Of a DNA stretch of 64,000 nucleotides, positions 30,972-58,081 are shown in pieces (the stretch's first letter is position 1; every line of letters begins with the position of its first letter). Under the pieces are notes generated by a model that was not told the origin of the DNA, ran no database searches, and worked only from the letters and a program-made list of their open reading frames with translations. The position numbers were made by a program, and so were the translations under genes. Source of the stretch: Photobacterium swingsii (GTDB taxonomy: Bacteria > Pseudomonadota > Gammaproteobacteria > Enterobacterales > Vibrionaceae); the NCBI RefSeq assembly GCF_024346715.1, contig NZ_AP024852.1, positions 1,736,001 through 1,800,000 of the forward strand. Direction: 5' to 3'.

Positions 30972-31235
30972 AAGAATGTCCTCTAAGCCGTATTATTAGA
31001 CAGGAAAGTTAGTCAATCCATGCATATACGGTAATGTGTTACCAAATGTAATAACGTCGATTTGATCACGAAGTTAAGACTGTCTTTTTTGAATAAAACT
31101 GATCTTAGAAGTGCGTGAATAACCAAAGTTAATATCTTGTAAATTCATAGTGTTAAAACGAGATTTGTTTTCCAATTATCAAATGGTATGATGTTCTGTA
31201 TGTGGGGTTGGGAAGATAAATAAAGTAGGTTGCGA

Positions 31236-33305
31236 GTGGATTTTGAAAGTTTTGTCAACAAGCTTGAACAATTTGGTTTTCGTAACGATGGTATCAATAA
31301 GGACTTTGAATATCGTTATGAAAAAAATAATAAGATAGGCGATAACTTCTATCAATCAACAGAGCCTTTGTTGGCTTGTGTAAGTAAATTGGATGACATT
31401 GCTTTCTCTACGGATGGTGATATTTACAAGCTGAAGTTTTATTTTGACAGGGTGAAGGAAACACCTCGTACTGGAACGTTTATTTTCAGCTTAAATCTTC
31501 AAGATAGAGGTGAATATCTTTCATTTTCACAAGCAAAAGATTTAAAACTTACCTTTCCATTTCAAGCGGTACTCAGCGATGGAAATCACCCGATTGTTAC
31601 ACTTAATAATAGTGAGCGCTGCCGGGTTAACTTTTTAGAGCCTAAAAAAGCGTCAGGCTTAGCAATTATCCCTAATCAAGGCATTTCACAATACTGGCAA
31701 GCATGTTTGCTTGAACTTGGTATTTCTTTTAGTGATACAAGCCCTCAATTTTGGCAACGTTGCGATCAAACCTCTCAACCAGCAGATCAAGCTTTTTTAT
31801 TTGGTATTGCACGACAGGTTTCGCAAATCCTTCGATACTATAATGCGCAGGCATATTCTAATCAGGATAACCAACTTCTTTATCAAGCAGGCAATGCCAC
31901 TATAGGTGGTATAAAGTTTGGGGTTGCTGGTTTGAGCTTTGAATTTAATTTATCGCAAGCGAATAGTAAGCAAATAAGCTTTTACCAAGATATTAAAAGC
32001 GTTTTGAGTGTACTTAAGCTGCCTTTTACGCAAGAAGGTAATTGGTTAAAAATCATCATCGATAGTCGCACTTTCACCAAAGCGACGACATTGGTTAGTC
32101 AGTGGTATCAAACGATTACACCTGTTTCGCCGAGCCAACACGCGGGAGACGAAATGAAAGCATTCAATCAAAACGGTATAGCTATGACGCATTCACCTCT
32201 TAACCAAATTCTATTCGGGCCGCCAGGCACAGGTAAAACCTTTCATACAACAGAAGCTGCAGTCAAAGCGGCTGACCCTGCGTTTTATGGCCAACTTAAT
32301 ATTAATCCCGCAGTGGGAGCGGACACAGAACAGCGCCAAGCCTTAACAAAAAAATATAAAGCCTTGTCGGAAGCTGGACGTATTCGCTTTGTAACCTTTC
32401 ATCAGAGCTATGGCTACGAAGAGTTTGTCGAAGGCTTGAAAGCTGAAACCACAGAAGATAATCAGATTAGCTATAAAGTGAGTGACGGTATTTTTAAATC
32501 CATTGCTAATGCGGCTTCGGTGTCGGAGTTATCTCCTAGTGTCGATCGCGGTGACAGTACCCCTTTACCTGCACAAAGCCATGTTGAACAGCATAATCAT
32601 GTATTGGTTATTGATGAGATCAACCGCGGTAATATATCTAAAATCTTTGGTGAACTCATTACGCTAATTGAAGAATCGAAACGTGCAGGCAATAACGAAG
32701 AGATCGCGTTAACCTTACCGTATTCAGGTAAAACGTTTTCCGTTCCTAATAATCTTTACATCATAGGTACGATGAATACGGCTGATCGCTCGCTTGCTAT
32801 GATGGATACCGCACTGCGTCGCCGTTTCGATTTCAAAGAGATGATGCCAAAACCTGAACTGTTCAATAACAGAACAGTGAAGGGCATCGATCTCACGCGC
32901 TTATTAGAAACACTCAATAAACGTATCGAAGTTTTATATGATCGTGAGCATATGCTGGGTCATGCCTTTCTTTTTCCTGTGTTCAACGAGGCGGATGAAG
33001 ACAACGCCTTTATTAAGCTGAAAGATGCATTCAAGAACAAAATTATTCCATTACTGGAAGAATACTTCTACGAAGATTGGAATAAGATCCGGCTTGTACT
33101 TGGCGACAATCAAAAAGAACAGAGTGCTGGGCGCGATTACACCTTCATCCAAGCTCATAGCGATTCTTTCGATGCACTGTTTGGCCATAATCACGGTTTA
33201 GAAACGTATGAAGACAGTAAAGTCACTTACAAGTTGAAGGACTTTGACGATGCGGTTTGGAGTCAGCCTGAAGCCTATGTAGCGATATACTCTAAGAGTG
33301 AGTAA
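31236..33305 (+). CDS. mcrB: McrB-like AAA+ NTPase of a methylation-dependent restriction system, 689 aa
   Basis: C-terminal AAA+ GTPase of McrB: Walker A GPPGTGKT at about 328-335, Walker B VLVIDEINRG at about 456-465, and the McrB sensor NTADRSLAMMDTALRRRFDF at about 514-533. The N-terminal 300 residues, with a duplicated-looking FDFESF/KFGVAGLSFEFN stretch, would bind methylated DNA but match no reader domain I know. I choose the GTG at 31236, since TAGG is six bases upstream, while the TTG at 31230 abuts that site. It forms an operon with mcrC three bases downstream. McrBC cleaves DNA carrying modified cytosine and restricts modified phages and plasmids. Confidence 0.92.
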   Translation: MDFESFVNKLEQFGFRNDGINKDFEYRYEKNNKIGDNFYQSTEPLLACVSKLDDIAFSTDGDIYKLKFYFDRVKETPRTGTFIFSLNLQDRGEYLSFSQAKDLKLTFPFQAVLSDGNHPIVTLNNSERCRVNFLEPKKASGLAIIPNQGISQYWQACLLELGISFSDTSPQFWQRCDQTSQPADQAFLFGIARQVSQILRYYNAQAYSNQDNQLLYQAGNATIGGIKFGVAGLSFEFNLSQANSKQISFYQDIKSVLSVLKLPFTQEGNWLKIIIDSRTFTKATTLVSQWYQTITPVSPSQHAGDEMKAFNQNGIAMTHSPLNQILFGPPGTGKTFHTTEAAVKAADPAFYGQLNINPAVGADTEQRQALTKKYKALSEAGRIRFVTFHQSYGYEEFVEGLKAETTEDNQISYKVSDGIFKSIANAASVSELSPSVDRGDSTPLPAQSHVEQHNHVLVIDEINRGNISKIFGELITLIEESKRAGNNEEIALTLPYSGKTFSVPNNLYIIGTMNTADRSLAMMDTALRRRFDFKEMMPKPELFNNRTVKGIDLTRLLETLNKRIEVLYDREHMLGHAFLFPVFNEADEDNAFIKLKDAFKNKIIPLLEEYFYEDWNKIRLVLGDNQKEQSAGRDYTFIQAHSDSFDALFGHNHGLETYEDSKVTYKLKDFDDAVWSQPEAYVAIYSKSE

Positions 33306-33308
33306 GCC

Positions 33309-34706
33309 ATGGTGAAGCCACAGAAAGCGCTTACGGTATTTGAATTTGATTTTGTCGCTAAGGCGATAAAAGCGGGATCCGATACCAGCCATCCTAATGT
33401 TCATAAAGTGACGGCGAAAAGTTACGATTACTTGAAGCAGATTTGTTTAGGCGATAAAAGTGATCGTAAGTTATTTAAGCTGCGCAGTATTGATGGGATG
33501 GAAGTCTTGCAAGTGCAAAACTATGCCGGTGTCATATTCACGCCAGACAAGACGCAAATTGAAGTACTGCCTAAAATTGGACGGTATTTGGATGCTGGCG
33601 AACAGGGTATTCAGCAGGCGCGCCAATCTTTAATCACTATGCTTAGAGCATTGAAGGGCTTTGAGCATGTACAAACTGCGAGTGCGAATATTGCAGCGGA
33701 AAAGATGCCTTTGCTTGAAGTGTTCATTACGCAATTTCTGCAATCGGTGAATTACCTTGTTAAGCGGGGACTACGCAGTGATTATGCGCGCCGAGAAGAC
33801 AATTTAACCTTCCTGAAAGGTAAGCTGAATATAGGCAAGCAACTGCGTCATAATTTAGTGGATAAGCATAAGCTGTATTGTGAGTACGATGAGTTTTTAC
33901 TGGATCGCCCTGCAAATCGGCTATTGCATGCGGCATTAAATAAAGTGAAAACGCTCACGCGAAGCGCCTCTAATCAGAAGCTACTGCAAGAACTTGTGCT
34001 TGTTTTTCATGACATCCCCAAAAGTCAGGATCACCAAACGGACTTTAATAAGTTAAAGCTGGATAGGAGTATGGGCCACTACCAGGTGCCTATACAGTGG
34101 TGTCAGCTGATATTGAATGGTTACTCGCCGCAAAGTATGAAAGGGGCAACTCATGCGGCATCTTTGTTATTCCCGATGGAGAAAGTGTTTGAAGACTACG
34201 TGGCGAAAACACTAAAGGATCAGCTTGCCAATAACGGGTCGGGCTTACAGTTAGAAACACAGGCGACAGGTAAGCATTTAGCGGTTTATCAAGGGAAAGG
34301 TAAGTTCAGTCTCCGCCCAGATTTGATGATTAAACAGGGTGGACGCAATAGAGTCGTACTTGATACGAAATGGAAGCTGCTCGATAGTGATGTCTATAAC
34401 GCTAATATTTCTCAGTCTGATATTTACCAGATGTTTGCTTATGCGAAAAAATACTTAAGCCAAGGCGGTGATCTTCAACAAGACAGAGAACTTCAACAAG
34501 GTAAAGATGTCGTGTTGATCTATCCCATGCAGCCTCATTTTCAACAAGCATTGCCAGATCGTTTTGATTTGGATGATGGTCATCGACTCTGGGTTGTGCC
34601 GTTCGACATCGTGTCGAAGAAAAGCCAATGCCATTGGGCGGATGCACTACGGCACAGTGATGAAGGTGAGATATTTAATCTGTTAGTTGCCAGTGCTCAA
34701 TTATAA
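33309..34706 (+). CDS. mcrC: McrC nuclease subunit of McrBC, 465 aa
   Basis: Starts three bases after mcrB. The N-terminus resembles McrC DUF domains (LFKLRSIDGMEVLQVQNYAGVIFTP). The C-terminal PD-(D/E)xK nuclease core is visible: LRPDLM with D338, then VVLDTKWKLL with D352 and K354. Central helices (YARREDNLTFLKGKLN, FLLDRPANRLLHAAL) are typical. It needs McrB to translocate and cut. No methyltransferase is nearby, as expected for a type IV system. A terminator follows. Confidence 0.93.
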   Translation: MVKPQKALTVFEFDFVAKAIKAGSDTSHPNVHKVTAKSYDYLKQICLGDKSDRKLFKLRSIDGMEVLQVQNYAGVIFTPDKTQIEVLPKIGRYLDAGEQGIQQARQSLITMLRALKGFEHVQTASANIAAEKMPLLEVFITQFLQSVNYLVKRGLRSDYARREDNLTFLKGKLNIGKQLRHNLVDKHKLYCEYDEFLLDRPANRLLHAALNKVKTLTRSASNQKLLQELVLVFHDIPKSQDHQTDFNKLKLDRSMGHYQVPIQWCQLILNGYSPQSMKGATHAASLLFPMEKVFEDYVAKTLKDQLANNGSGLQLETQATGKHLAVYQGKGKFSLRPDLMIKQGGRNRVVLDTKWKLLDSDVYNANISQSDIYQMFAYAKKYLSQGGDLQQDRELQQGKDVVLIYPMQPHFQQALPDRFDLDDGHRLWVVPFDIVSKKSQCHWADALRHSDEGEIFNLLVASAQL

Positions 34707-39206: not shown

Positions 39207-39359
39207 TTTGAGCTACAGAACTCAATTTACAGAATGGTGTTTTGTTTAATTTTTAAATATGTATAATATGCGTCACATTATGTCGCATCAATAATGATAA
39301 TAATCATAACAACAACGACATAGCGTTATTTTGCATTGTGATAAGAGTGATTGAACAGT

Positions 39360-40313
39360 ATGGCGAAAAGAGCAAGCACTCAAGAATCGGTAGCCTTGGC
39401 GTTTGAATTACTGAAGCGCATTCCACGCTCACGGAAGGTAACGGCCAGTGAACTGCGCGATCAATTAGAGAGTGTCGGGATCGTTAGAGACATTCGATCG
39501 ATACAACGTAACTTAGAAACATTGTGCGAGCATTTTAATATCACTCGCGATGAACGTAGTAAGCCTTATGGCTATTCATGGAATAAGTGTGGGGAAGGGT
39601 TAGCACTGCCGAACTTGAGTTCTCATGAAGCTTTGCTATTGAGCATGGCAGAAGACTACTTAGCGAACTTGTTACCAGCAAATGTCATGTCATCGTTAGA
39701 CGGCTTTTTTGCTGAAGCAAGACATAAGCTCAATCCTAGTTGCGATAACAGCAAAGACAGAAACTGGTTGAAAAAGGTAAGGGTTGTTAGTGAAACCCAG
39801 CCATTATTGCCTCCAAAGCTGGATGATGGTGTTTTTAAAGCTGTGAGTGAAGGCTTGTACAACGATAGGTTATTGAACCTGGAATACCATAATGCGCGTC
39901 AGCAAACACGCACTGCGCTTGTGATGCCGCTGGGACTGGCGCAGCAAGGTTGCCGAATGTATTTAGTTTGTCGATTTGATGGTTACGACAATGAACGCGC
40001 TTTGGCTTTGCATCGAATCAGTAAGGCTGTGGTTTCTTCATTTGGTTTTGAACGCCCTAAAGACTTTCAATTGAGCCAGTATGATGCTGATGGACGGTTT
40101 GGCTTTGGGGAAGGAGATAAATGTAAAGTGACATTTAATATCACTAAACAAGCGGGGTTTCATTTATTAGAAACGCCATTGTCACACGATCAAATAATAG
40201 AAGAAAACGAGCAGGATTATTTTATTACCGCAACAGTCATTGATTCACTCAGGTTGAAAATGTGGGTGAGAGGCTTTGGTGATGATATTTGGAATGTAAG
40301 TTACGAGAAATAA
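39360..40313 (+). CDS. WYL-domain transcriptional regulator, 317 aa
   Basis: N-terminal winged HTH (about 5-70; KVTASELRDQLESVGIVRDIRSIQRNLETLCEHF), WYL domain (about 155-225; LNLEYHNARQQTRTALVMPLGLAQQGCRMYLVCRFDG) and a C-terminal WCX-like extension (DKCKVTFNITKQAGFHLLE, LRLKMWVRGFGDDIW). WYL regulators often sense nucleic-acid or nucleotide ligands and repress phage-defence operons. It precedes the five-gene operon at 40477-44856 in the same direction, with a 163-bp gap likely holding the controlled promoter. I start at the ATG at 39360; a TTG lies nine bases earlier. Confidence 0.9.
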   Translation: MAKRASTQESVALAFELLKRIPRSRKVTASELRDQLESVGIVRDIRSIQRNLETLCEHFNITRDERSKPYGYSWNKCGEGLALPNLSSHEALLLSMAEDYLANLLPANVMSSLDGFFAEARHKLNPSCDNSKDRNWLKKVRVVSETQPLLPPKLDDGVFKAVSEGLYNDRLLNLEYHNARQQTRTALVMPLGLAQQGCRMYLVCRFDGYDNERALALHRISKAVVSSFGFERPKDFQLSQYDADGRFGFGEGDKCKVTFNITKQAGFHLLETPLSHDQIIEENEQDYFITATVIDSLRLKMWVRGFGDDIWNVSYEK

Positions 40314-40476
40314 AAAGCACTTTATTTTAGTTTCAACAACATGAATAGAATGCCATTTACTGGCGAACTTTATTCGTGGCAGCGATTCCTAATATCTGAA
40401 ATAACTAAATTTTATTACTCTTTATATTAAGAGTGATTTTTCAGAAATATCAATAATTAGAGAGTAAGGACATAGT

Positions 40477-41547
40477 ATGGCATTACCATTCATTTTGGCT
40501 GGAGCTGCAGTTGCGGCCGCAGGTTTTGGTGCAAAGAAAGGGTATGACGGTTATCAAGATAAATCATTAGCGAATGATATTTTGGAATCAGCGAAAAGCG
40601 ATTACGAAAATGATAAAAAGTTATTCGACAAAGCAAATGAACGCACAACGAAAAGCCTTACTCAGTTGGGTGAACTGCAACTGAAAGTAGGCGAAGACTT
40701 TAAAGCGTTTCGTACTATTGCAGATAAGTTACTTGAAAAACTGAACCAATCGGGCTCGAAAGATATCAACATTGATTTCCCTCAGCACAAGCTAGATAAA
40801 ATTGATGGTTTGGCATTATCGACAACGGCTTACTTGGGTAAAGTTGCAGGGGCTGGTATTGGTGGTGCAGCCGCGGCTTACGCTGTTTACGGCGGTGTCA
40901 TGGCATTGGCTGCTGCGTCTACTGGTACGCCAATTGCTGCACTTTCTGGTGCCGCGGCCTATAACGCAACGATGGCTGCGATTGGTGGTGGTTCACTGGC
41001 TGCTGGCGGCTTTGGTATGGCAGGTGGTGCTATGGTATTGGGTGGCGTTGTTGCTGCACCAATTATGGCAATTGCGGGTTGGGCATTTGCTGCACATGCA
41101 GAAGAAGCACTAAGTGATGCTCGCAAAACGCGTGATGAAGTTGATGATGCTATCTCAAAAATGACCAAAGGCCGTAGCCAATTAAATAAGACACGTGGTT
41201 ATGTTGTTCAAATTAAAACCGAAACACAGCGTATCTATGAAGAATTCCAAAAATACTTTGATAGCTTAAAAGCGATGGATCATCTGATAAAAACGGGTGC
41301 GAACATTGACGCCTTTGGTGATGATCTTATTCAAATCATTCAGAATGGCTATCAAGTGGCTGCCATTTTAACCGATATTATTACTACGCCATTATTTAAG
41401 CCGAAGTGTGATAGCGCGGGTAAAGTGATTATTAAAGATAATGTTGTTCAAATCGAAACAGACAAAGATGGTATGCAGGTTATTAACGATGCTGCTATTG
41501 ATGAAACATTAGCGAAAGCGAAATTTGAATCAAAACAATTTGATTAA
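40477..41547 (+). CDS. alpha-helical membrane protein with long Gly/Ala hydrophobic domain, pore-former-like, 356 aa
   Basis: First gene of the WYL-linked operon. Layout: a short N-terminal hydrophobic segment (3-18), a long helix (about 30-95), a Gly/Ala-rich hydrophobic region at about 118-208 with glycine-zipper patterns (GAGIGGAAAAYAVYGG, GGGSLAAGGFGMAGGA), then another long amphipathic coiled-coil-like helix (about 210-285) and a small beta-like tail. Long helices bracketing a hydrophobic hairpin are the architecture of alpha-pore-forming proteins such as ClyA/Hbl/YaxAB. This is structural analogy only; I see no sequence match. No signal peptide, so it may act on the inner membrane from inside. 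A hairpin separates it from the next gene. Confidence 0.72.
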   Translation: MALPFILAGAAVAAAGFGAKKGYDGYQDKSLANDILESAKSDYENDKKLFDKANERTTKSLTQLGELQLKVGEDFKAFRTIADKLLEKLNQSGSKDINIDFPQHKLDKIDGLALSTTAYLGKVAGAGIGGAAAAYAVYGGVMALAAASTGTPIAALSGAAAYNATMAAIGGGSLAAGGFGMAGGAMVLGGVVAAPIMAIAGWAFAAHAEEALSDARKTRDEVDDAISKMTKGRSQLNKTRGYVVQIKTETQRIYEEFQKYFDSLKAMDHLIKTGANIDAFGDDLIQIIQNGYQVAAILTDIITTPLFKPKCDSAGKVIIKDNVVQIETDKDGMQVINDAAIDETLAKAKFESKQFD

Positions 41548-41556
41548 CAACCAATG

Positions 41557-41581
41557 AAAGGTGGCGGATAAGGCCACCTTT
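41557..41581 (+). terminator. intra-operon hairpin (attenuator-like)
   Basis: Perfect nine-base arms AAAGGTGGC / GCCACCTTT, seven-base loop, ten bases after the stop codon and 24 before the next ATG. The tail ATTGTCTC lacks a full U-tract, suggesting partial termination or RNA processing that would make gene 1 more abundant than genes 2-5. Confidence 0.55.
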
Positions 41582-41605
41582 ATTGTCTCTTGGAGTATGC
41601 GATTC

Positions 41606-43324
41606 ATGTCTGTAACATCTGCCTCTGCACGTACTGATTTTCACTTAATGGAAGAACTGAATAAAACGGTAGTTCAAAGTTTAGTGAGTTCGTTTGGTCT
41701 GGATTTTTTATTGTTTGAAGATAAAAAAGGTGGCGAAGTTGCCACTATCCATAACGTGCGTAAGCATCAGAATGGTGAAACAGATATTCATCTTTCTGAA
41801 CAAGTAAAACAGGAATATCAAAATAAAGGTGATTATAAACCTGCTAAGTTAGATGCTGACGGTAAGCCGGTATTCAACAGTAAAGGTAAAGCAGTAAAGG
41901 TTGATCGTTACCATTCTGATGCCGACTACAAAAGCCGTGGCGCAGTGGATAAACAACTGCATCAAGAAGGGCAGTTGTACGATGCATATCGCGACCAAAA
42001 CATGGCATACAACGAGAATCGCCAGCTTGATCACATCATTTCGTCGCATGAGGTGCACAACGATGCAGGTCGCGTACTGGCTGGGCTTGATGGCGTTGAA
42101 CTTGCCAACCAAAGTTCGAATTTTCAATCAACCCATTCGTACATTAACAACCTTAAGTCTGCTCACTCGATGGATGCGTTCTTAGGTGATGTGTTACCAC
42201 GTACCATAGAAACGAAAAAAGCCAACATAGCGCAAAATCGCGAGAAACTGGCAGCCATGCCGACGACGACACCTCAACAACGCCATGAAAAGCGTAAAAT
42301 TGAAGCTAAGATCACGAAAGATCGAGAACATATCGAGGTGCTAGAAAGTCTTGATCACGACAAAATGCGCGAAGCCGATCAACAAGCACGTCAGCAGTAC
42401 GATGGTCAGATCAATGCCACGTATTACAGTAGCAGCAAGTTTTTCAAAAGTACTGCAGTCGAGTCTGCAAAATCAGGCTTTAAAATGGGGATGCGCCAAG
42501 CACTCGGCATGATCATGGCTGAAGTTTGGTTTGAGCTAAAAGAACACATTCCATCACTGTACAAAGATGCACAGGGCAACTTTACCTTGGAGCGTTTTCT
42601 TGACCGCTTAAAGAAAATGGCGGTCGATATTTGGACGCGAATTAAAGCACGTTTTAAAGATATTTTGACCGAGTTCAAAGACGGCGCTATTGGTGGTGTA
42701 CTCTCTAGCTTGACTACCACTGTCATGAATATATTTTTCACGACTCAAAAGTTGATTGGTAAGTTGATCCGAGAAATGTGGACCAGCTTAGTGTCAGCGG
42801 CAAAAATGGTGTTCTTTAACCCAAGTAAGCTATCTGCTGGCGATTTAGCGCGTGAAGTGACCCGTATTTTATCAACGGGTGTCGCAGTCGCTATGGGGGT
42901 TATTTTGAACCAACACCTAGCAACTGTCATGACATTCCCTTTTGGCTCTGAGCTTGCATCATTCATTAGCGCTATTGCCACTGGACTGATGACATTAGGG
43001 GTGACTTACTTTTTGGATCACAGTGAGATGATGCAAAAGGTCTGGAACTTCCTTAATCAATTTAAAAGCGAAGCGCGCCGTACATTAGAATACTTCCAAA
43101 AAGTGAATGCCGAGCTAGATCGCTATTTGGTTGAGTTAGCGGCCCTTGAGTTTAATTTAGACCCACAAGAAATGGCGCAATTTACCGATAGTTTAGTCGC
43201 CGTTAATTGTGAGTATGAGAAAGGCTTGATCCTTACGCAGGAAATCAAAATGCGTGATATTGAATTACCGTTTGAAGCGGGTAACTTAGATAGCACGCGC
43301 AGTTGGTTGAAAAGCTTATGCTAA
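41606..43324 (+). CDS. HNH-like domain protein with membrane C-terminus, 572 aa
   Basis: Second gene of the WYL-linked operon. The N-terminal half contains QLDHIISSHEVHNDAGRVLAG (about 140-160) followed by ELANQSSNFQSTHSYINNLKSAHSM, the spacing of an HNH nuclease with H143 and downstream Asn/His residues. A charged coiled-coil segment follows (about 205-265; KRKIEAKITKDREHIEVLES). The C-terminal half has amphipathic and hydrophobic helices (about 350-390, 415-470, with GVAVAMGVILNQHL and ASFISAIATGLMTLGV), so it is membrane-associated. I start at the ATG at 41606 because TGGAG is ten bases upstream; longer in-frame starts lie inside the hairpin. A membrane-linked nuclease would suit a defence effector; that is inference. 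Confidence 0.72.
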   Translation: MSVTSASARTDFHLMEELNKTVVQSLVSSFGLDFLLFEDKKGGEVATIHNVRKHQNGETDIHLSEQVKQEYQNKGDYKPAKLDADGKPVFNSKGKAVKVDRYHSDADYKSRGAVDKQLHQEGQLYDAYRDQNMAYNENRQLDHIISSHEVHNDAGRVLAGLDGVELANQSSNFQSTHSYINNLKSAHSMDAFLGDVLPRTIETKKANIAQNREKLAAMPTTTPQQRHEKRKIEAKITKDREHIEVLESLDHDKMREADQQARQQYDGQINATYYSSSKFFKSTAVESAKSGFKMGMRQALGMIMAEVWFELKEHIPSLYKDAQGNFTLERFLDRLKKMAVDIWTRIKARFKDILTEFKDGAIGGVLSSLTTTVMNIFFTTQKLIGKLIREMWTSLVSAAKMVFFNPSKLSAGDLAREVTRILSTGVAVAMGVILNQHLATVMTFPFGSELASFISAIATGLMTLGVTYFLDHSEMMQKVWNFLNQFKSEARRTLEYFQKVNAELDRYLVELAALEFNLDPQEMAQFTDSLVAVNCEYEKGLILTQEIKMRDIELPFEAGNLDSTRSWLKSLC

Positions 43325-43665
43325 CCGAAAAGCTAAAACCATTTCCGTGTAACGGGTGTGGGAAGTGCTGTGCGAACGTTCACCTGTCAGAAATAACGCT
43401 GCCACTAAGTCGAGGTGATGGCATATGCCGTCACCTTGATACCGCGACGAGGCGTTGTAAAATTTATGATAACAGGCCAGAGATTTGCCAAGTAGAACGG
43501 CAATATCGAGAAAACTATGCAGAGCAGTTTTCTTGGGATGAGTTTATCGCGATTAATCTAGAAATCTGCGAAAACCTACCTGATAGAATCGCAGCAAATA
43601 GCCTAGATCTAGCCAGTGGGATAAGCGATCAACTACTTAAAGATGAAGAGATAAATGCTAGATAA
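43318..43665 (+). CDS. YkgJ-like Cys-cluster (putative zinc/iron-chelating) protein, 115 aa
   Basis: Third gene of the operon. FPCNGCGKCCANVHLSEITL followed by CRHLDTATRRCKIYDNRPEICQV matches the YkgJ/UPF0153 family (CxxCxxCC...C...C...RPxxC), thought to bind zinc or an iron-sulfur cluster. The ATG at 43318 overlaps the stop of the upstream gene (ATGCTAA), so translation is coupled. Small single-domain member. Its role in the operon is unknown; metal or redox sensing is possible. Confidence 0.85.
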   Translation: MLTEKLKPFPCNGCGKCCANVHLSEITLPLSRGDGICRHLDTATRRCKIYDNRPEICQVERQYRENYAEQFSWDEFIAINLEICENLPDRIAANSLDLASGISDQLLKDEEINAR

Positions 43666-43984
43666 AATTGAATCGGCGTTGGATAAGTTTAATGCTTCAG
43701 CGGCTGAGGCGAAAACTGTCGTTGAAAGTTCGAAAAATCTGACACTAGAGGCGAAAGAGTTAGCGCCAATGCTCGACTTGGTTGATGAACGTATTCAAAA
43801 AGCCGCCGTAAATCTAAAAAAAGAAGTGCTAGCAACGATCGACCAAGCACATGCTAAACACAAGCAGGAAATGGAAGCACGATTTACAATAGAGCGAAGC
43901 CATCAAAAAAAGATGTTATTGCTTAACGTGGGTATCGCGACCATGGCTGTTATTACATTCATCTTTCAGCGTATTCTTAGCTAG
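43655..43984 (+). CDS. coiled-coil protein with C-terminal membrane anchor, 109 aa
   Basis: Fourth gene, overlapping the third by 11 bases. Residues 1-80 are a charged helix with heptad-like spacing (DKFNASAAEAKTVVESSKNL, ERIQKAAVNLKKEVLATID). Residues 86-105 are a single hydrophobic helix (MLLLNVGIATMAVITFIF), giving a tail-anchored topology. No family recognised. It could be an adaptor holding the other products at the inner membrane. Confidence 0.75.
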   Translation: MLDKIESALDKFNASAAEAKTVVESSKNLTLEAKELAPMLDLVDERIQKAAVNLKKEVLATIDQAHAKHKQEMEARFTIERSHQKKMLLLNVGIATMAVITFIFQRILS

Positions 43985-44013
43985 TTTAACTAAACAAAGG
44001 AACCTCAATAACC

Positions 44014-44856
44014 GTGCTCAGTAAACTCAAAGCCATTAAAGCGGCATTACCCCGTGTTAATCCCACTCAACCAACATCAGATCCGAGCTCAGCCGTTGAG
44101 TTACACGTTATTCGAGAGGGTAAGCACAAGTCGGCCTCCAGTGCAGCAACAGTATTAGTGATTAACGGTTTCATGTCTGGCAAAGGTTGTGATGTTTCTG
44201 ACTGGCTAGAAGTTGTTGATGCCTTATACCCAGATCATAAAGTGATCCATGTAAAATGGAAGGCAGGTAACTTGAGCGATTTGCTGTTGGATGAAGGCCT
44301 AGTTCAGTTAATGCCAAGCGTGACCACGCAAGACTCATTAATCAAAAAATTAGGTGTGGCTGGCTTTTCAGCGATCAATAAAGTATCGGGTCATTGGCGT
44401 AAAGCGTTCGCTGAAACTGAAGTTGTAGGGGCTGCACTGGCCAATTTGATTGAACAAGATCCTGAATTAGATGCTTGTGTTTTGATGGGGCACTCACTGG
44501 GTGCGCGTATTATTCGCCATACGATGGAAAGGCTAACAACCAACAAAGTCAGCCAGTGTTATTTGCTTGCTGGCGCGGTGTCATCACACTCCAAATTGTG
44601 GAAAACGATTTTCGATACCCATGCTGATACCGTCTTTATTAACTGCATGAGTAAAACGGACTCGGTACTGAAATATGCCTACAAAGCGGGGACGTTATTC
44701 CGTGAGTCACCGATTGGTTTACATGCGTTAGAGCATAAAAGCCACACGGCAATTACTAACCTTGATGTGACTGACGTTGCCAGTAAGCATACCAAGTTTA
44801 AGCACAAAGCCTTGGGTGAGTTGTTGAAGAAAGCATTTTCTGACGTGAAATCCTGA
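44014..44856 (+). CDS. DUF726/TMCO4-like alpha/beta hydrolase, 280 aa
   Basis: Last gene of the operon, GTG start with AAAGGAAC upstream. Alpha/beta-hydrolase features: ATVLVINGFMSGKGCDVSDW (first strand and oxyanion region), VLMGHSLGARII with the nucleophile Ser in GHSLGA (about residue 160), then YLLAGAVSSHSKLW and IGLHALEHKSHTAITNLDVT. The pattern follows DUF726 proteins of eukaryotic TMCO4 type, probably lipid or ester hydrolases. No secretion signal. With membrane proteins encoded upstream, a lipase or thioesterase acting on the inner membrane is a reasonable guess. Confidence 0.82.
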   Translation: MLSKLKAIKAALPRVNPTQPTSDPSSAVELHVIREGKHKSASSAATVLVINGFMSGKGCDVSDWLEVVDALYPDHKVIHVKWKAGNLSDLLLDEGLVQLMPSVTTQDSLIKKLGVAGFSAINKVSGHWRKAFAETEVVGAALANLIEQDPELDACVLMGHSLGARIIRHTMERLTTNKVSQCYLLAGAVSSHSKLWKTIFDTHADTVFINCMSKTDSVLKYAYKAGTLFRESPIGLHALEHKSHTAITNLDVTDVASKHTKFKHKALGELLKKAFSDVKS

Positions 44857-50418: not shown

Positions 50419-50826
50419 ATGGATATTCAAAGAATCACATGGGATCAAGCTTTGTCAGTTAGGCACACTGTACTTTGGCCGACGAAGCCGCCTCTATTTT
50501 GTAAGGTGGAGGGTGATGAAACGGCAATACACTATGGCGCATTTATTGATAACAACTTGGTCTGCGTTGCTTCCATTTATATTGATGATGGCTCTGCGAG
50601 GCTAAGGAAGTTTGCGACCTTACCTGACTTTCAAGGTAAAGGTATTGGAACAAAAGTTATAGAGCGTGCAGTTGAAGAACTCAAAGCATACGGTGTTTGT
50701 TACTTTTGGTGCGATGCGCGTATTAGTGCTTTAGGTTTTTATCAAAGGTTTGATTTCAAAGCACAAGGGGAAGTGTTTAAAAAATCGGATGTATCGTATT
50801 ATCAAATGGCGGTTAAATGGGAATAA
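50419..50826 (+). CDS. GNAT family N-acetyltransferase, 135 aa
   Basis: Compact GNAT: ARLRKFATLPDFQGKGIGTKVIERAV (beta4 and acetyl-CoA loop, about 65-90), YFWCDARISALGFYQRFDFKAQG (beta5 to C-terminal GF-like motif). The start is preceded by GAGGGG. Short length matches ElaA/YjdJ-like small GNATs. Substrate unknown. Not flanked by attC. Confidence 0.9.
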   Translation: MDIQRITWDQALSVRHTVLWPTKPPLFCKVEGDETAIHYGAFIDNNLVCVASIYIDDGSARLRKFATLPDFQGKGIGTKVIERAVEELKAYGVCYFWCDARISALGFYQRFDFKAQGEVFKKSDVSYYQMAVKWE

Positions 50827-50894
50827 GCCGTTTTATAGTTCACTTTCAAACTATAAACCTTTAGTCAGTATGAACTTGAGTTGGCAGTAAGGGG

Positions 50895-50921
50895 CATGAG
50901 CTCTGAGGGCGAGAGCTCATG
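50895..50921 (-). terminator. terminator of the small gene at 50932
   Basis: CATGAGCTCT / AGAGCTCATG with a seven-base loop lies 10 bases past the stop codon on the minus strand; only a short pyrimidine tail (CCCCTT) follows. Confidence 0.6.
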
Positions 50922-50931
50922 AAAACGGGAG

Positions 50932-51114
50932 CTAGTGCTGAATGACGATACTTTCTTTATCTGTCGTAAATAAGCTCGCTCTATTTTGGTCGATCAACTG
51001 AGCAGCATAAGAGGGTGTCACTGCTTGTACTTCACCTTTTGCTTTAAGCGTGAGTGACTCCCAAGCATGATCCCGATACTTGCCTGTTTGTGTGTATTGA
51101 ATGAGTATTTTCAC
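50932..51114 (-). CDS. small hypothetical protein, 60 aa
   Basis: Starts MKILIQYTQTGKYRDHAWESLTLKAKG-like (basic beta-rich half), then TPSYAAQLIDQNRASLF and a short tail. It has its own terminator and no overlapping gene. Family not recognised. Confidence 0.55.
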   Translation of the reverse strand: MKILIQYTQTGKYRDHAWESLTLKAKGEVQAVTPSYAAQLIDQNRASLFTTDKESIVIQH

Positions 51115-51324
51115 TGACTTGGTCTCGCTATTATTGCTCTTTACGTGCTACTAACATTAATCGCTTTACTAGGGTTACACACCCGTTAAATATGGAACAT
51201 AAGATTAACCAAATGTGTGAGTGGCGTTAACGAACCTTATTGTTGTTTCTATGTCACTCATGTACTTTGGTTTTCTGATAAGGCAATTTAATTAAACAAT
51301 TCTTCCGTTTGAGTAACAAGGACT

Positions 51325-51783
51325 GTGCATGTGATCAGCCATGACGAATTAAGGTTGCAAGAATTAAACGCGACCAATTTCTATGCTGTTTGCCAATTAT
51401 CGGTTAAGCAGGAGCAGAAGGGTTACGTAGACACTAATGCCATATCAATGGCTGAAGCTAACTTCTCTGATTACGTATGGATGAGAGGTATCTATCTCAA
51501 CGAGGTACCTGTCGGGTTTGTGATGCTTAATGCTCACCCTGAAGAAAACACCTTCTATTTGTGGCGCTTTATGATAGATAAGAATTATCAGGGATTAGGG
51601 TTAGGCCGTTCTGCTATTCAGCTTATTGTTAACGAGCTAAAAGCAACTTTTAACGCTACAGAGCTCACTACCAGTGTGGTTCCGGCTAAAGATGGGCCTC
51701 AGCAGTTTTACGAATGCTTGGGTTTTAAAATTACGGGAAATTATATTGAAGGGCGTGAGTTGGAGTTAAAGCTTTCGATATAG
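51325..51783 (+). CDS. GNAT acetyltransferase, spermidine/spermine-type (BltD-like), 152 aa
   Basis: The pattern LSVKQEQKGYVDTNAISMAEA, then GIYLNEVPVGFVML, YLWRFMIDKNYQGLGLGRSA (acetyl-CoA loop, about 85-100), TSVVPAKDGPQQFYECLGF and the ending TGNYIEGRELEL matches diamine/spermidine N-acetyltransferases. Polyamine acetylation is therefore the likely activity. GTG start with AAGGA upstream; a second GTG lies six bases later. Isolated gene. Confidence 0.85.
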   Translation: MHVISHDELRLQELNATNFYAVCQLSVKQEQKGYVDTNAISMAEANFSDYVWMRGIYLNEVPVGFVMLNAHPEENTFYLWRFMIDKNYQGLGLGRSAIQLIVNELKATFNATELTTSVVPAKDGPQQFYECLGFKITGNYIEGRELELKLSI

Positions 51784-51926
51784 AAACCTAGTTGTCGTGT
51801 TCTGAGAAAGTGTAGTGCTTAAAAGTTAGCAATAAATGATCAAATTATCTTGTCTATACTTTACTGCGGCATGATACTTTGAAGCTAATAATGTATTCCT
51901 ATTGCAATTAAGATCTTTTTCCTTCT

Positions 51927-52331
51927 ATGAAGTCATTAAATTTAAGTATCAGTGTTATTTATCTTGTGTTTGTTACCTGCACTGTATTATTTTCTCATGC
52001 CCCAGTTGAATTTTTAGCGAGTTATATTGTTCTTAGTCTTTTGACTTTTGCTGTATACGCGAAAGACAAAAGGGCGGCAGTGAAAGGTGAGTGGCGAACG
52101 AAAGAAAGTACGCTTCACTTACTATCCTTAATGGGCGGTTGGCCTGGTGCATTGATTGCACAAAGAAAATTGCGACATAAGACCAAAAAACAACCGTTTA
52201 AGTTGATACTATGGGTAACAGTTGTTTTAAATTGTGTCGCTTTCGTTTGGACTCAAACCCCAAAAGGAAGTGTTATTAGCCATGCTGCGTTGGTAGAGCT
52301 ACATCAGTTGTTAGCGACGGCAATAAGTTAG
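51927..52331 (+). CDS. DUF1294 family membrane protein, 134 aa
   Basis: Hydrophobic helices at about 5-25, 28-45 and 92-110. The conserved DUF1294 block YAKDKRAAVKGEWRTKESTLHLLSLMGGWPGALIAQRKLRHKTKKQPF (read in parts) lies at about 45-92. Some relatives carry a cold-shock domain at the N-terminus; this one does not. Role unknown. Ribosome binding site weak. Confidence 0.88.
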   Translation: MKSLNLSISVIYLVFVTCTVLFSHAPVEFLASYIVLSLLTFAVYAKDKRAAVKGEWRTKESTLHLLSLMGGWPGALIAQRKLRHKTKKQPFKLILWVTVVLNCVAFVWTQTPKGSVISHAALVELHQLLATAIS

Positions 52332-52439
52332 CCAGTATTAACCAATAGACTGAGTTTGAGCGGGTTCCCCGAGTAAACGTTAGTGTATTAGAGGCTAACA
52401 AGCATGAAAGTATGTTGTTATTTGAATGAGTAAGCATTG

Positions 52440-52796
52440 ATGGATGTATTATTAATTAGCGTTATTGTGCTTTTGATGTTTTTTGTCTTTCCTTATGTGA
52501 GTTCTCGATTCAACGATGCCGTTAATGACAGTCATCGCATCCTTGAGGTAAAAGGTGATCATGTTTGTATCCGTCAGTTTTCAGCACAAAGGTTACTCAG
52601 GTTACGAGGTAAATCTATCCCAGCGTCGGACATAGTGCGTATTCAATATGCGAACCCATTACCGCAAGGCATTTGCATCACCTTATTAAATAAGAGTGGT
52701 AGTGCTTTAGAGTTTTGGGTGTCTGAATTTCAGTTAGGCGCAGTTAAGTCAACGTTGAGTAGAGCTTGCCCTTTAGCGAAAATTGAACAGTTATAA
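52440..52796 (+). CDS. small single-helix membrane protein, 118 aa
   Basis: N-terminal helix (about 2-20; VLLISVIVLLMFFVFPYVSS), then a PH-like or beta-rich cytoplasmic part (VKGDHVCIRQFSAQRLLRL, SIPASDIVRIQYANPL). It ends before a strong terminator. Family not recognised. ATG at 52440, just after a TTG. Confidence 0.65.
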   Translation: MDVLLISVIVLLMFFVFPYVSSRFNDAVNDSHRILEVKGDHVCIRQFSAQRLLRLRGKSIPASDIVRIQYANPLPQGICITLLNKSGSALEFWVSEFQLGAVKSTLSRACPLAKIEQL

Positions 52797-52817
52797 CAAT
52801 CAACGATAAAAACTATA

Positions 52818-52850
52818 GCCACTAGCAGGTATTGCTGGTGGCTTTTTTTT
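52818..52850 (+). terminator. strong rho-independent terminator
   Basis: GCCACTAGCA / TGCTGGTGGC followed by eight T residues. Confidence 0.92.
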
Positions 52851-53120
52851 ATCTTAAAAATCTACAATTTTAATCAAGGCTATTTAAGCAATACCATTTA
52901 ATCAAGATTGTTCATTTAATCCGAATAGTCTTTTCTTCAAATGCTCAATTATCAGAATAATATGAATAGTTATAATCGATGCTGAGGTACGCAATAGAGC
53001 GAAGCTTGATGGCTATGGAATAGGAAATCTTGCCTGTCTTGTATTTCAGTTATGTCATTTTAGTTTTTATCGTTCTGTTACGTTAATGGTTGGAATACTT
53101 AACAAACAGAGAAAATTACT

Positions 53121-53660
53121 ATGAGAAAACCTCTTATATTTGCAGTCTCGGTTTTATTGTCATCTCCTTCATTTGCCGCTGATTTCAGCCTGACGAGTGA
53201 TTCCGTTGTAAATGGGCAGCCGATATCAAATACATTTTTCGCAAATCAATTTGGTTGTGATGGAGCTAATGAGGTTCCAGACTTGAGTTGGAACAATGTT
53301 CCCCAAGGCACCAAGAGCTTTGCTCTAACTTATTTTGATATGGATGCACCAACGGGGAGTGGTTTTTGGCACTGGTCTGTTTTTGATATCCCCGGCAATG
53401 TGACGCACATAAACGGTGGGATTAATGGCGGTAAGCTTCCTGTTGGCACTGTTGAAGGCAAAACGGATGTTGGTGCAAAAGGCTTTATTGGCTCTTGCCC
53501 ACAAATCGGGGAAGTGCATCGTTATCAATGGAAGCTCACTGCATTAGATGTCGCTAAATTACCTGTTGATTCAAATGCAACCCCGCAAATTGTCGCTTTA
53601 ACAGTGCTTGCTCATAAGATCGATGACGTAACACTGACAGTGTTAGCTGGACGAAAATAA
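53121..53660 (+). CDS. YbhB/YbcL family (PEBP-like) secreted protein, 179 aa
   Basis: Signal peptide (...SSPSFA, residue 19). Residues 22-175 are a PEBP fold: PDLSWNNVPQGTKSFALTYFDMDAPTGSGFWHWSVFDIP, with the DxDAP and HW ligand-pocket motifs, and later EVHRYQWKLTALD. Bacterial YbhB/YbcL proteins bind small anions or lipids; the role is uncertain. It forms an operon with the DoxX gene 12 bases downstream. Confidence 0.9.
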   Translation: MRKPLIFAVSVLLSSPSFAADFSLTSDSVVNGQPISNTFFANQFGCDGANEVPDLSWNNVPQGTKSFALTYFDMDAPTGSGFWHWSVFDIPGNVTHINGGINGGKLPVGTVEGKTDVGAKGFIGSCPQIGEVHRYQWKLTALDVAKLPVDSNATPQIVALTVLAHKIDDVTLTVLAGRK

Positions 53661-53672
53661 AAGGATATTATA

Positions 53673-54440
53673 ATGAAAAGTAAAAATGAAATGTGGTTGT
53701 TTTTACAAGCAACCTCATTACTTTCGTTTGTCGCAATACTTTATAAGATGGGAACAATAGACGATACATGGCTACATGCGTCATTATTTATATTTGGTGC
53801 TATTACGCCCATTTTAGTGTTTGCCTTAAGAAATAAAAATAGAGTGTCGTTTTTGATCACCATAGTACCGACATTAATAATTATTCGAATTGCTGACCAA
53901 AATGATATTAGTTTAATCGGTTGGTTAACGGCCGTATCACTCATTCCACTTTTAATTCAATTTATTGGGATTGCGAAAGAAGTTTACAAAGAAAACCAAC
54001 ATGAATTTGCACTTATGTGTATTCGCCTATTTGTTGGTTTTAACTTTATCACTCATGGCACCGAAAAGTTGTTTGCTGGTGCCGCTGTGCACAATGGCAT
54101 GCGAGGTTATTTCGGGCAAGTCGCTGGGTTTGACCAAGTGGGCCCATGGTTTACGGACCTGATGATCTATGTGGGTGGTGTAACTGAAATAGGTGTCGCG
54201 CTATTGATTGGCTGGGGATTATTTACTCGCCTTGGTGTGGTGTGGGCTATTGCTTATTTGATCGCTGCTGAGTTGTTTTCTGGGCACTTCCTTATTGGTT
54301 ATACCTGGGCGATGCCAGGTGGTGGTTGGGAATTCCCATTCTTCTGGGCAATGATCCTATACCCATTCTTCTTCCTCAAAAATCAAGGCCCAATGTCGTT
54401 CGATGGTATGTTAATGAAAAAGCGACATGCTAGTGTTTGA
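53673..54440 (+). CDS. DoxX family membrane protein, 255 aa
   Basis: The N-terminal 105 residues hold four hydrophobic helices not typical of DoxX; the C-terminal 140 residues are DoxX-like: CIRLFVGFNFITHGTEKLFAG, YVGGVTEIGVALLIGWGLFTRLG and GGGWEFPFFWAMILYPFFFL. DoxX proteins are linked to redox or thiosulfate metabolism and oxidative stress. Ribosome binding site AAAGGA. Its last 85 bp are duplicated at 55375. Confidence 0.87.
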   Translation: MKSKNEMWLFLQATSLLSFVAILYKMGTIDDTWLHASLFIFGAITPILVFALRNKNRVSFLITIVPTLIIIRIADQNDISLIGWLTAVSLIPLLIQFIGIAKEVYKENQHEFALMCIRLFVGFNFITHGTEKLFAGAAVHNGMRGYFGQVAGFDQVGPWFTDLMIYVGGVTEIGVALLIGWGLFTRLGVVWAIAYLIAAELFSGHFLIGYTWAMPGGGWEFPFFWAMILYPFFFLKNQGPMSFDGMLMKKRHASV

Positions 54441-54865
54441 AATAGATTTGCTCATACACATCTCTATTTGAAACGCGAACAATGTTATTAAATGGATGAC
54501 TAGGTAAGGCGAATAAGTATCAAGCTCACATCGCCTTAGATAATACTTAGTGTGAATATGAAGGCAGGCATAGAGTGGGATTACGTTATGCCTGTCGTCA
54601 TGTATGCAATTGATGAGTTAGCTGTTTCACTAGTTATTAATTTTACTCGTATATAAAGTGTCAGAGTAAGGCAGAGTCGGTTGTTGGTCATATAGATAGT
54701 GCATCAAGGGTGTTCATTAAGGATGTTAAATGTGTATACATTGGATGCCCTTAAGCGTTTATTCATAGAGTGGGAATTATTCACTAGAAATGCAAGCAGA
54801 CATTTGACACCATGCTGCTAAATAGTGTGACTGCATAATGCAGAATCCAACACAAGGAGCCGAGA
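54441..54865. other. intergenic region with no gene seen
   Basis: About 425 bp between the DoxX and YgjV-like genes. No ORF with a ribosome binding site and no strong hairpin noticed except near the end, where AAGGAG introduces the next gene. Confidence 0.35.
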
Positions 54866-55369
54866 GTGACCCCTTTTTTTCTATCTCAAGTTTTAGTCGC
54901 AATCGCGATATGTTTTGACTTAATGTCCTTTCAATTCAAAGAGAGGAAAAAAATCGTAACCTGTTTGTTTTGCGCAGGTACACTGATCTCTAGTCATTTC
55001 ATCTTGCTAGAGCAGTGGACAGCAGCAAGCCTGATGATAATAGCAACCGTACGATATCTAGTGAGCGTTTTTTCTACTTCTTCTAAGCTTAAATACCTTT
55101 TTTGTGGCGCATCATTCATCTCTACTTTTGTAACCTATTCGGGGCTGGTCAGCGTTATTAGTTGTTTAGGCTCTATGTTCCAAACGATTGCAGCTTTTAA
55201 CGAAAATGACCGTCGCTTAAGAGAATTGATGATTGTAGGTACAGCATTTTGGTTGTTGCACAATTATCTAATTGGTTCACCAACTGCAGTAGTAATGGAA
55301 ATGTTGTTTATCTCTAGTAACTTAATTGGCTATTATCGTTATTACTATAAGCCAGCACCTGCGCTGTAA
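54866..55369 (+). CDS. ygjV: YgjV family (Imp-YgjV) inner-membrane protein, 167 aa
   Basis: Six hydrophobic segments. Family features: DLMSFQFKERKKIV, CAGTLISSHFILLEQWTAASLM, ATVRYLVSVFS and FWLLHNYLIGSPTAVVMEMLFISSNLIGYYRYY. Function unknown in E. coli. GTG start with AAGGAG nine bases upstream. It lies in a segment flanked by a duplicated DoxX gene end. Confidence 0.88.
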   Translation: MTPFFLSQVLVAIAICFDLMSFQFKERKKIVTCLFCAGTLISSHFILLEQWTAASLMIIATVRYLVSVFSTSSKLKYLFCGASFISTFVTYSGLVSVISCLGSMFQTIAAFNENDRRLRELMIVGTAFWLLHNYLIGSPTAVVMEMLFISSNLIGYYRYYYKPAPAL

Positions 55370-55374
55370 TATCT

Positions 55375-55456
55375 ATTCTTCTTCCTTAAAAATCAAGTGC
55401 ATGTCATTTGATGGTCTGTTAATGAAAAAGCGGCACGCTAGGGTTTGAAATCGATT
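55375..55456 (+). pseudogene. duplicated 3' end of the DoxX gene
   Basis: ATTCTTCTTCCTTAAAAATC...GGTTTGAAATCGATT aligns to 54365-54449, the end of the DoxX gene plus its stop and nine downstream bases, with about a dozen substitutions and a small deletion. Not translated as far as can be seen. Confidence 0.8.
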
Positions 55457-55589
55457 CATCCAAATGTGATTATTTCTTGTGATACCTTTCTCAAACCTCT
55501 GAATATTCTGGGTTAAAATGAAATGACCTTATACAATTTAATATATCAGAGCTTTTAAGCTGTGACTGTTAATTGCCAAGGAGGCGAGT

Positions 55590-55739
55590 ATGACATTAGC
55601 TCAAAAAATAGCGTTAGGCTTAGGCTCGGGGTTATTGGCAGGCTCGGTGGCAGAGGTTTTAACTGAGTGGCAATTTAGCTGCTTTGCGCTAGGCCTTTTG
55701 TTGCTCAATTGCACGTTTGTCTCTATGAGCCGAAAGTGA
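55590..55739 (+). CDS. small hydrophobic protein, 49 aa
   Basis: A strong ribosome binding site AAGGAGG lies seven bases before the ATG. Peptide: MTLAQKIALGLGSGLLAGS, VAEVLTEWQFSCFALGLLLL, then NCTFVSMSRK. Two short hydrophobic helices, probably an inner-membrane microprotein. Shorter than typical ORF-calling limits but the start signal is excellent. No family recognised. Confidence 0.65.
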   Translation: MTLAQKIALGLGSGLLAGSVAEVLTEWQFSCFALGLLLLNCTFVSMSRK

Positions 55740-55795
55740 TCGCTGCTCGATGATTTTCATCGCGTTTGTAACCTGATTTTATTAACAAGGAAGAT

Positions 55796-56284
55796 ATGAA
55801 GTTAAGCCCCTTTGATCAACAGGACTATCACCAGCTTATTAAATGGATAATGTCAGCTGAAACTAACTATTTATGGGGTGGCCCTGTTTTTTCTTATCCG
55901 CTTGATACGGAACAAATTCGCATTCACTGCAAGCAACACCAAGTCTTTCCTTTTCTGCTTACTCGCTCGGGTATCAAGCTTGGCTATGTCGAGCTTTATC
56001 AAGAATCTCATGATCATTTTCGTATTTGTCGTGTCTTTATTGCGGATGAATACCGAGGGCAGGGCTTAGCTAAAGAAATGCTGACACTGCTTATCGACAA
56101 AGCCGTAAATACTTTAAATGCTAAGCAAGTGAGCCTTGCTGTTTTCGATCATAATCATGCTGCAAAAGCATGTTATTTATCGTTAGGTTTTGAGATCACT
56201 TCGTTGGAAAAAGGCATTCGTTCTTTTAACGGCGAGCCTTGGGATTTAGTGTTGATGACAAAGGCGGTGTGGCCCAAGATGTGA
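55796..56284 (+). CDS. GNAT family N-acetyltransferase, 162 aa
   Basis: GNAT core: HFRICRVFIADEYRGQGLAKEMLTLLIDKAV (about 75-105) and VSLAVFDHNHAAKACYLSLGFEIT. The N-terminus (FDQQDYHQLIKWIMSAETNYLWGGP) is like RimJ-type acetyltransferases acting on small substrates. AAGGAAG upstream. Just outside the second cassette array. Confidence 0.9.
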   Translation: MKLSPFDQQDYHQLIKWIMSAETNYLWGGPVFSYPLDTEQIRIHCKQHQVFPFLLTRSGIKLGYVELYQESHDHFRICRVFIADEYRGQGLAKEMLTLLIDKAVNTLNAKQVSLAVFDHNHAAKACYLSLGFEITSLEKGIRSFNGEPWDLVLMTKAVWPKM

Positions 56285-56513
56285 CGCTGCCTACATAGCG
56301 TGGGGGACACCAGTCACTATGAGTAAATCTTTGAACTTGGTCGATTTTCTTACAGGTCATACTGAGAGTTTATTGATCGATAAGTGCTTGGTTTTATACC
56401 CTTGATTTTGTTTTATTAATGTCAAAACGCAATTATGAGCAATGAAATATTCGAAAAGCGAAAAGGTGGTTTCCGCTTTAGCCTTTATATTCCATTTTTC
56501 ATGACAGAAGACT

Positions 56514-56600
56514 TTACAAGGTCATCAATACTACCGCCAATGCTCTGCATTCTAGGTATGGGTTGTCTTTAGTATTTTCAGTGCTCTATCAACACGCAAT
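56514..56600 (+). repeat. degenerate attC, type B, at the start of the second array
   Basis: ACAAGGTCATCAATACTACC and CTCTGCATTCTAGGTATGG follow the type B consensus, but both core sites are lost. It marks the left edge of the second cassette array. Confidence 0.6.
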
Positions 56601-56614
56601 TTCAGGAGAATAGG

Positions 56615-56905
56615 ATGGATTTTATTTGGCTGTTTCTTATTGGCTGTGGTTTCAGTGTATTTTACTATTTCGTTATTTACTCTAAACCACAGGATAGTGA
56701 TTGGCACAGATTGCCAACACTTTCAGAATATTTGGGAAAACATCCAGAGTGTAAAACCAATGACAGTGAAAATGCCAAATGTTTTAGCTGTGGCTCAGAT
56801 AAGGTTATTTTCCAGCCATTAACTATTCATTCTGACCCACGATATAAACATGTCTGTTTGTCATGTAAAAAAGTGCTTTTCAGAAGCAAGGCGATAGTTT
56901 CTTAG
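56615..56905 (+). CDS. membrane-anchored zinc-ribbon-like protein, 96 aa
   Basis: An N-terminal helix (3-22; FIWLFLIGCGFSVFYYFVIY) followed by a soluble part with CFSCGSDKVIFQPLTIHSDPRYKHVCLSCKK, a CxxC...CxxC zinc ribbon (about 57-85). GGAGAATAGG precedes the ATG. First cassette-like gene of the second array. Function unknown. Confidence 0.72.
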   Translation: MDFIWLFLIGCGFSVFYYFVIYSKPQDSDWHRLPTLSEYLGKHPECKTNDSENAKCFSCGSDKVIFQPLTIHSDPRYKHVCLSCKKVLFRSKAIVS

Positions 56906-58072: not shown

Positions 58073-58081
58073 GAGCTAAGC

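Follow-up and report, generated by a model that had tools for sequence, protein, structure and literature searches.

Zorya type II pairs a membrane complex with an HNH nuclease. PADLOC lists, under PDC names that we take to denote computational candidates, PDC-M09 (comprising PDC-M09A and PDC-M09B) and PDC-M40, and for two other PDC names candidate status is supported by PMC12409345. BrxR-type WYL repressors lie upstream of their putative targets and are associated at their own promoter with 10–11-bp repeats separated by a 5-bp spacer (PMC9122601), and the Ter system, which combines TerB with membrane components, is proposed to act against superinfecting phage (PMC7824862). Here we analyze an operon in a 64,000-nucleotide stretch of Photobacterium swingsii DNA (contig NZ_AP024852.1, positions 1,736,001–1,800,000, forward strand; the window, G000:C1:1736001-1800000, from a 5.65-Mb genome of two contigs, G000). 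In it, an M09A-type membrane protein (g2) is coupled not with PDC-M09B but with an M40B-type, HNH-like membrane protein (g3), and both are joined by a YkgJ-family protein (g4) and a WYL regulator with its own palindrome. We interpret these four genes as a WYL-controlled, mobile module that may encode a membrane-tethered nuclease acting on entering DNA, a reading to which we assign a probability of about 0.43.

The two membrane proteins match separate phage-defense candidates in PADLOC: g2 matches PDC-M09A (76.2 bits, E = 7.1e-22) and g3 matches PDC-M40B (134.9 bits, E = 9.2e-40). None of the six operon proteins matched PDC-M09B at E = 1, nor any model named PDC-M40A, a presumed name that we derive from the naming scheme. 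An earlier reading made from the letters and open reading frames (ORFs) alone (the sequence-only reading) knew of no described system with this gene set; two of its components were already listed as defense candidates, under separate names, while the set itself is undescribed in the literature that we found. Among the matches listed, no paper describes this combination, the partner exchange, palindrome or hairpin discussed below, or an experimental test. Like Zorya type II, the module pairs a membrane part with an HNH-like domain, but here that domain is fused to membrane helices, and ZorA and ZorB had no PADLOC match among the six proteins at E = 1. TerB, TerC and TerD likewise had no match in the operon at E = 1, and TerB is optional in the relatives of the module. 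The arrangement of regulator and 5-bp-spaced inverted repeat resembles that of BrxR (PMC9122601), whereas the arms here are 7 bp long and the recurrent sequence differs. A single-sequence search of PDB chains with the WYL protein found no BrxR at E = 0.1, only the WYL domains of 7u02 and 7tzv at ~0.08.

A search of genome contigs with the g3 alignment returned 49 loci, in records whose titles we take to denote Gamma-, Beta- and Alphaproteobacteria. In 45 of them g3 is directly flanked by g2 on its upstream side and by g4 on its downstream side; among the exceptions, L068 and L073 end at contig edges, L106 is degenerate and L097 has no g4. Close copies of g2 (>500 bits) and of g3 (at least 60% identity) mark the same 15 of the 296 genomes of the window's family, with g3 split or ending at a contig edge in G281 and G282. 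Where there was room for one, a WYL gene lies just upstream on the same strand in 26 of 41 loci, and on either strand in 30. The pairwise distances measured for g2, g3, g4 and WYL are strongly correlated (core genes, 42 loci; WYL included, 25 loci; WYL versus g3, r = 0.88); L058 and ten loci that were broken or incomplete had been excluded beforehand. This upstream position, the correlated distances and a recurrent palindrome support the inclusion of the WYL gene in the g2–g3–g4 module, in keeping with its earlier assignment as the regulator of the operon. The sequence-only reading had proposed a five-gene operon below that regulator and a survey of its co-occurrence and order. The genes and their order are real, and the survey finds g2–g3–g4 together across classes and phyla, but the unit is WYL–g2–g3–g4: g5 occurs in five of the 49 loci, g6 in four and both together in four.

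The HNH-like motif of g3 is strictly conserved: all 38 aligned sequences (the window and 37 of the 49 contig loci, with identities down to 44%) have the same residue at nine motif positions, namely D, H, D, R, N, N, T, N and K. These include the D-H ... N ... N..K residues of HNH/His-Me finger nucleases, whose individual roles in g3 we presume from that family. Across a set of 19 g3 sequences, 17 of them divergent, all 19 have the His, 18 have the Asp (L049 has Glu instead), and N171, N180 and K183 are retained in 18, 19 and 16, respectively; the divergent proteins of L050, L053 and L055 match PDC-M40B at 174–194 bits. Hydropathy places a hydrophobic segment at residues 441–485 (587-residue numbering), in line with the earlier description of g3 as an HNH-like motif fused to membrane helices.

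Two control elements accompany the module. The pattern TGCGNCR-N5-TGTCGYA matches 17 times across the 1.17 Mb of 63 loci, and 12 of these matches are no farther than 400 bp from the start of a WYL gene, on its upstream side, whereas 200 control palindromes averaged 0.165 matches, none near a WYL gene; the pattern was first derived from the window, P. indicum and P. jeanii, which makes these three loci circular, and some loci come from related species. When upstream DNA was scored against shuffled versions, 23 of the 50 WYL genes had a palindrome matching at 11 or more of 14 positions that no more than five of 200 shuffles equaled; by chance, about one such gene would be expected. The window's genome contains two sites, each just upstream of a WYL-type regulator; the second site of G273 is placed likewise, second sites also occur in G271 and G201 (regulator context was read for G000 and G273), and G240 has none. 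By eye, the Escherichia coli and Citrobacter copies carry CTGACA-N5-TGTCAG 40–46 bp upstream. The WYL protein is probably an autorepressor of the module. Another palindrome, ACTCTT-N6-AAGAGT, between WYL and g2 (40417–40434) has a different spacer in G273 and is absent in P. indicum and P. jeanii, and we dropped it in favor of the site preceding WYL.

The second element is a hairpin with a stem of at least six Watson–Crick pairs, found within 50 nucleotides of the g2 stop codon in 42 of 51 g2–g3 gaps (the window, 46 contig loci and four plasmid loci) as 39 distinct stem-loops, 12 of them with a T-rich tail. Among control sequences, such hairpins occurred in 6 of 459 windows taken from within g2 and in 52 of 2,550 shuffles, and the folding energy of 31 of 52 gaps was at or beyond the best five of 100 shuffles. 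Because the structure is kept while its sequence changes, the hairpin is suggested to be functional, probably acting on g2-to-g3 dosage.

The core genes stay together across classes and phyla, often in a mobile setting, as is supported by searches of plasmids, islands and phages. At E = 1e-5, g3 is present on 64 of 72,556 plasmid records. It is also present in 3 of 5,426 complete E. coli genomes, a search made with Citrobacter DNA that distant forms would escape; two of these copies were inspected, and both adjoin an integrase at tRNA-Sec. Seven of 50,697 phage records contain g3 and represent four Aeromonas jumbo phages; in phage LAh10, g2 (200 bits) adjoins g3 with no WYL gene beside the pair. 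On a Clostridioides difficile plasmid the order is WYL–g3–g4–g2 (WYL 50, g4 85 and g2 190 bits). A single-sequence query of IMG/VR viral contigs returned no relatives.

We favor a membrane-tethered nuclease on the grounds that regulation, hydrophobic segments, nuclease-like residues and mobility fit together. By binding the palindrome at its promoter, the WYL protein would hold WYL–g2–g3–g4 low. g2 would form an inner-membrane oligomer, made in excess of g3 if the gap hairpin stabilizes the message 5′ of it or causes partial termination of transcription. Beside it, g3 would expose its HNH-like domain to the cytoplasm and cut incoming phage, plasmid or conjugation DNA, and g4, whose eight cysteines are invariant in a 26-sequence alignment, may hold a metal or Fe–S cluster that tunes or assembles the nuclease. 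A role of the module in defense is our inference.

Several results weigh against this interpretation. Profile support for an HNH identity of g3 is weak: no Pfam HNH model passes its cut-off (HNH_4 reached 0.37 at best, in 3 of 32 sequences, under its curated cut-off), and a whole-protein scan hit GmrSD_C in 4 of 38 sequences (best 0.0093), no better than unrelated families with three to six members. The predicted g3 structure is confident over residues 71–270, and beyond 270 the predicted local distance difference test (pLDDT) scores of the blocks are 39–76; Foldseek with this model found nothing at E < 0.001, with Cas9 rows ranking below many coiled-coil rows. Searches for solved relatives of whole g3 and of its motif segment gave none of use. 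The unit is also variable, as a same-strand WYL gene is absent upstream in 15 of the 41 testable loci, 27 of 50 WYL genes have no significant upstream palindrome relative to shuffled DNA, g4 was matched in none of the ten divergent g3 loci of the family and class, and the complete records of jumbo phages LAh10 and D3 likewise gave no g4 match, a search run without a positive control. The distance correlations are in part shared descent, and restriction genes lie near the module in several of the loci examined, as examples without a background rate. Finally, two other PADLOC candidates showed no activity when tested by others (PMC12409345).

Abortive infection would use the same parts differently: infection would lift WYL repression or trigger g2, after which g3 would cut the cell's own DNA or the g2–g3 membrane part would depolarize the cell. 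Hydrophobic segments in both proteins (in g2, residues 1–19, 128–146 and 174–208 by hydropathy, with a Gly/Ala core conserved in a 34-sequence alignment) and a dedicated regulator with its palindrome would suit such a mechanism, in which g4 could serve as a safety component. A SUKH (SMI1/KNR4) gene stands directly 5′ of a divergent g3 on a Klebsiella plasmid (L113:5424-5933), and members of this family are often immunity proteins, but the loci examined have no conserved immunity gene beside g3, and in LAh10 the pair lacks both an adjoining WYL gene and a g4 match. Nor is there any sign of a pore fold. The label "pore-former-like", given to g2 in the sequence-only reading, reduces to hydrophobicity and coiled coils, since a g2 profile searched against PDB chains retrieved coiled-coil or unrelated chains among the best 60 of 91 rows, led by a myosin/GCN4 chimera at E = 0.0041; we rejected a pore-forming toxin on this basis, and an alpha-pore toxin among the Foldseek rows for g3 (E = 9.0) is meaningless. 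We consider abortive infection unlikely.

Alternatively, the module could exclude competing DNA on behalf of the plasmids, islands and jumbo phages that carry it, with other plasmids or superinfecting phages as its main targets rather than protection of the host. Its distribution (64 of 72,556 plasmid records, tRNA-Sec islands, Aeromonas jumbo phages) agrees with such a function, as does the presence of TerB, from the Ter system proposed against superinfection (PMC7824862), in 3 of the 49 loci and in the vicinity of some second-tier g2 genes and some divergent g3 genes. Many loci, however, lie on contigs without known mobility, and the chemistry would be that of the membrane-tethered nuclease, hence hard to tell apart; we regard exclusion as distinctly unlikely. 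An envelope or metal/oxidative stress operon, in which the motif would be structural, is improbable: the YkgJ and TerB families, the DUF726 hydrolase and the coiled coils would suit envelope stress, and nuclease matches are missing at E < 0.001 in Foldseek and above Pfam cut-offs, but the nine invariant residues, the His kept in 19 of 19 sequences and sporadic presence (close copies in 15 of 296 family genomes) are unlike a housekeeping function.

Beyond the conserved unit, relatives of g2 and g3 change neighbors. Weaker, second-tier relatives of g2 occur in ten more genomes of the family, and no g3 match was found near them in the stretches examined (nine of those genomes and three from a phylum search). 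Several adjoin PDC-M09B proteins instead (L136, 624 bits; L140, 645 bits; L130, 61 bits), or in L137 a homologous gene; L129 has YkgJ, TerB and a 531-residue protein, L138 has TerB and YkgJ, and the other six stretches show different neighbors. In turn, a protein of 178–236 residues precedes g3 in 8 of the 10 divergent family or class g3 loci; of four such proteins scanned, one scored above the TerB cut-off and two below. At other divergent loci, the neighbors read from sequence as long coiled coils with a hydrophobic C-terminus. These changing neighbors suggest a modular superfamily. Possibly, though we hold the idea tentatively, g2 is a shared membrane adaptor with exchangeable anchored partners (g3, M09B and the 531-residue protein of L129), within a superfamily of membrane-gate nucleases that would cut DNA at entry, often under the common WYL operator TGCGACA-N5-TGTCGCA, in bacteria, plasmids and jumbo phages. 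Searches for solved relatives of g4 and of M09B returned none of use.

All ORFs and junctions of the operon were confirmed, with six genes on the + strand (Table 1). As first described, g3 and g4 overlap as ATGCTAA (43318–43324), g4 and g5 by 11 bases (43655–43665), and 29 bases separate g5 from g6 (43985–44013), with the WYL gene just upstream. Hydropathy of g5 and Pfam scores above cut-off (21.8 bits for WYL, 23 for CxxCxxCC and 22.6 for DUF726) agree with the anchored coiled coil, Cys-cluster and hydrolase products named earlier; WCX in the WYL protein scored 19.8 bits, under its cut-off. The start of g3 is most likely ATG 41606, which GGAG precedes by ten bases, and not GTG 41561, the start given in the mechanical ORF list; numbering from ATG 41606 matches the earlier H143. 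Public annotation in L033, L107 and L109 calls g2 a 'chemotaxis protein' and g3 an 'ATPase' or 'cobalamin adenosyltransferase', and Pfam scans gave no support for either g3 name.

Table 1. Features of the operon and its control elements, in window coordinates.
Feature	Position	Strand	Basis
Candidate WYL operator, inverted repeat TGCGTCA-CATTA-TGTCGCA	39269..39287	n/a	~70 bp upstream of WYL start
WYL-domain regulator, 317 aa	39360..40313	+	Pfam WYL, 35.1 bits
g2, Gly/Ala-rich helical membrane protein with coiled-coil flanks, 356 aa	40477..41547	+	PADLOC PDC-M09A; alignment; hydropathy
Hairpin in g2–g3 gap, AAAGGTGGC...GCCACCTTT	41557..41581	+	Stem of at least six Watson–Crick pairs
g3, HNH-like domain fused to membrane helices, 572 aa; motif residues 42029–42157	41606..43324	+	PADLOC PDC-M40B
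g4, small YkgJ/CxxCxxCC protein, 115 aa, eight invariant Cys	43318..43665	+	PF03692, 33.8 bits
g5, tail-anchored coiled coil, 109 aa, accessory cassette with g6	43655..43984	+	C-terminal hydrophobic segment 87–105
g6, DUF726 alpha/beta hydrolase with GHSLG, 280 aa, accessory	44014..44856	+	PF05277, 49.8 bits

By locus counts and genome context, g5 and g6 form an accessory cassette that is joined to the core in some Vibrionaceae. DUF726 is present in 18 of the 296 family genomes and adjoins the core in six (G000, G254, G260, G271, G273 and G459), and in G192 the g5–g6 pair stands in an 11-kb stretch from which the core is absent; with the low locus counts, these observations led us to reject a five-gene system. 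Other DUF726 genes (L155 and L156) adjoin an EcsC-like protein and a dynamin-like GTPase, both named from sequence, which suggests that DUF726 has contexts of its own. No useful solved relatives of g6 were found.

Around the operon, two of nine Vibrionaceae stretches compared (L035 and L046) have long flanks in common with the window, and the only flank matched in P. indicum (L036) at E = 1e-10 was a segment ~73 bp long upstream of WYL, at the candidate operator. We sought an empty site, and no genus member beyond the window's close relatives carried both flanking LysR genes together at high identity. A type IV restriction pair, an McrB-like AAA_5 protein and McrC, lies at 31230–34706, ~4.7 kb upstream of WYL. 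On a Paraclostridium plasmid (L116:258-4725), a Sau3AI-family endonuclease, a helix-turn-helix gene, a glycine-zipper gene and a divergent g3 stand in a row. At the second palindrome site of G000 (contig 2, L161:2746-4336), the WYL-type regulator (220 bits with the WYL profile) stands divergent from a sirtuin-like gene and is followed by a 177-residue protein whose start is GIY-YIG-like, both names being read from sequence. Downstream of the operon, 50419–63376 holds a long, cassette-array-like run of short, mostly + strand ORFs; we rejected an integron because the region has three small repeat families only and no regular array. Three in-register 90-nucleotide direct repeats lie at 59762–60031, with copies two and three 76% identical to copy one.

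In this analysis, two candidates listed apart in the database become a single coherent module: its parts are defined, and it comes with a regulator, a candidate operator and a probable stoichiometry element. The module spans phyla and also occurs in jumbo phages. To our knowledge, the targets of most such WYL regulators are an open question, and the palindrome offers a sequence handle for finding them. If our interpretation is correct, a membrane-fused nuclease at the point of DNA entry would represent a distinct defense strategy that is directly testable.

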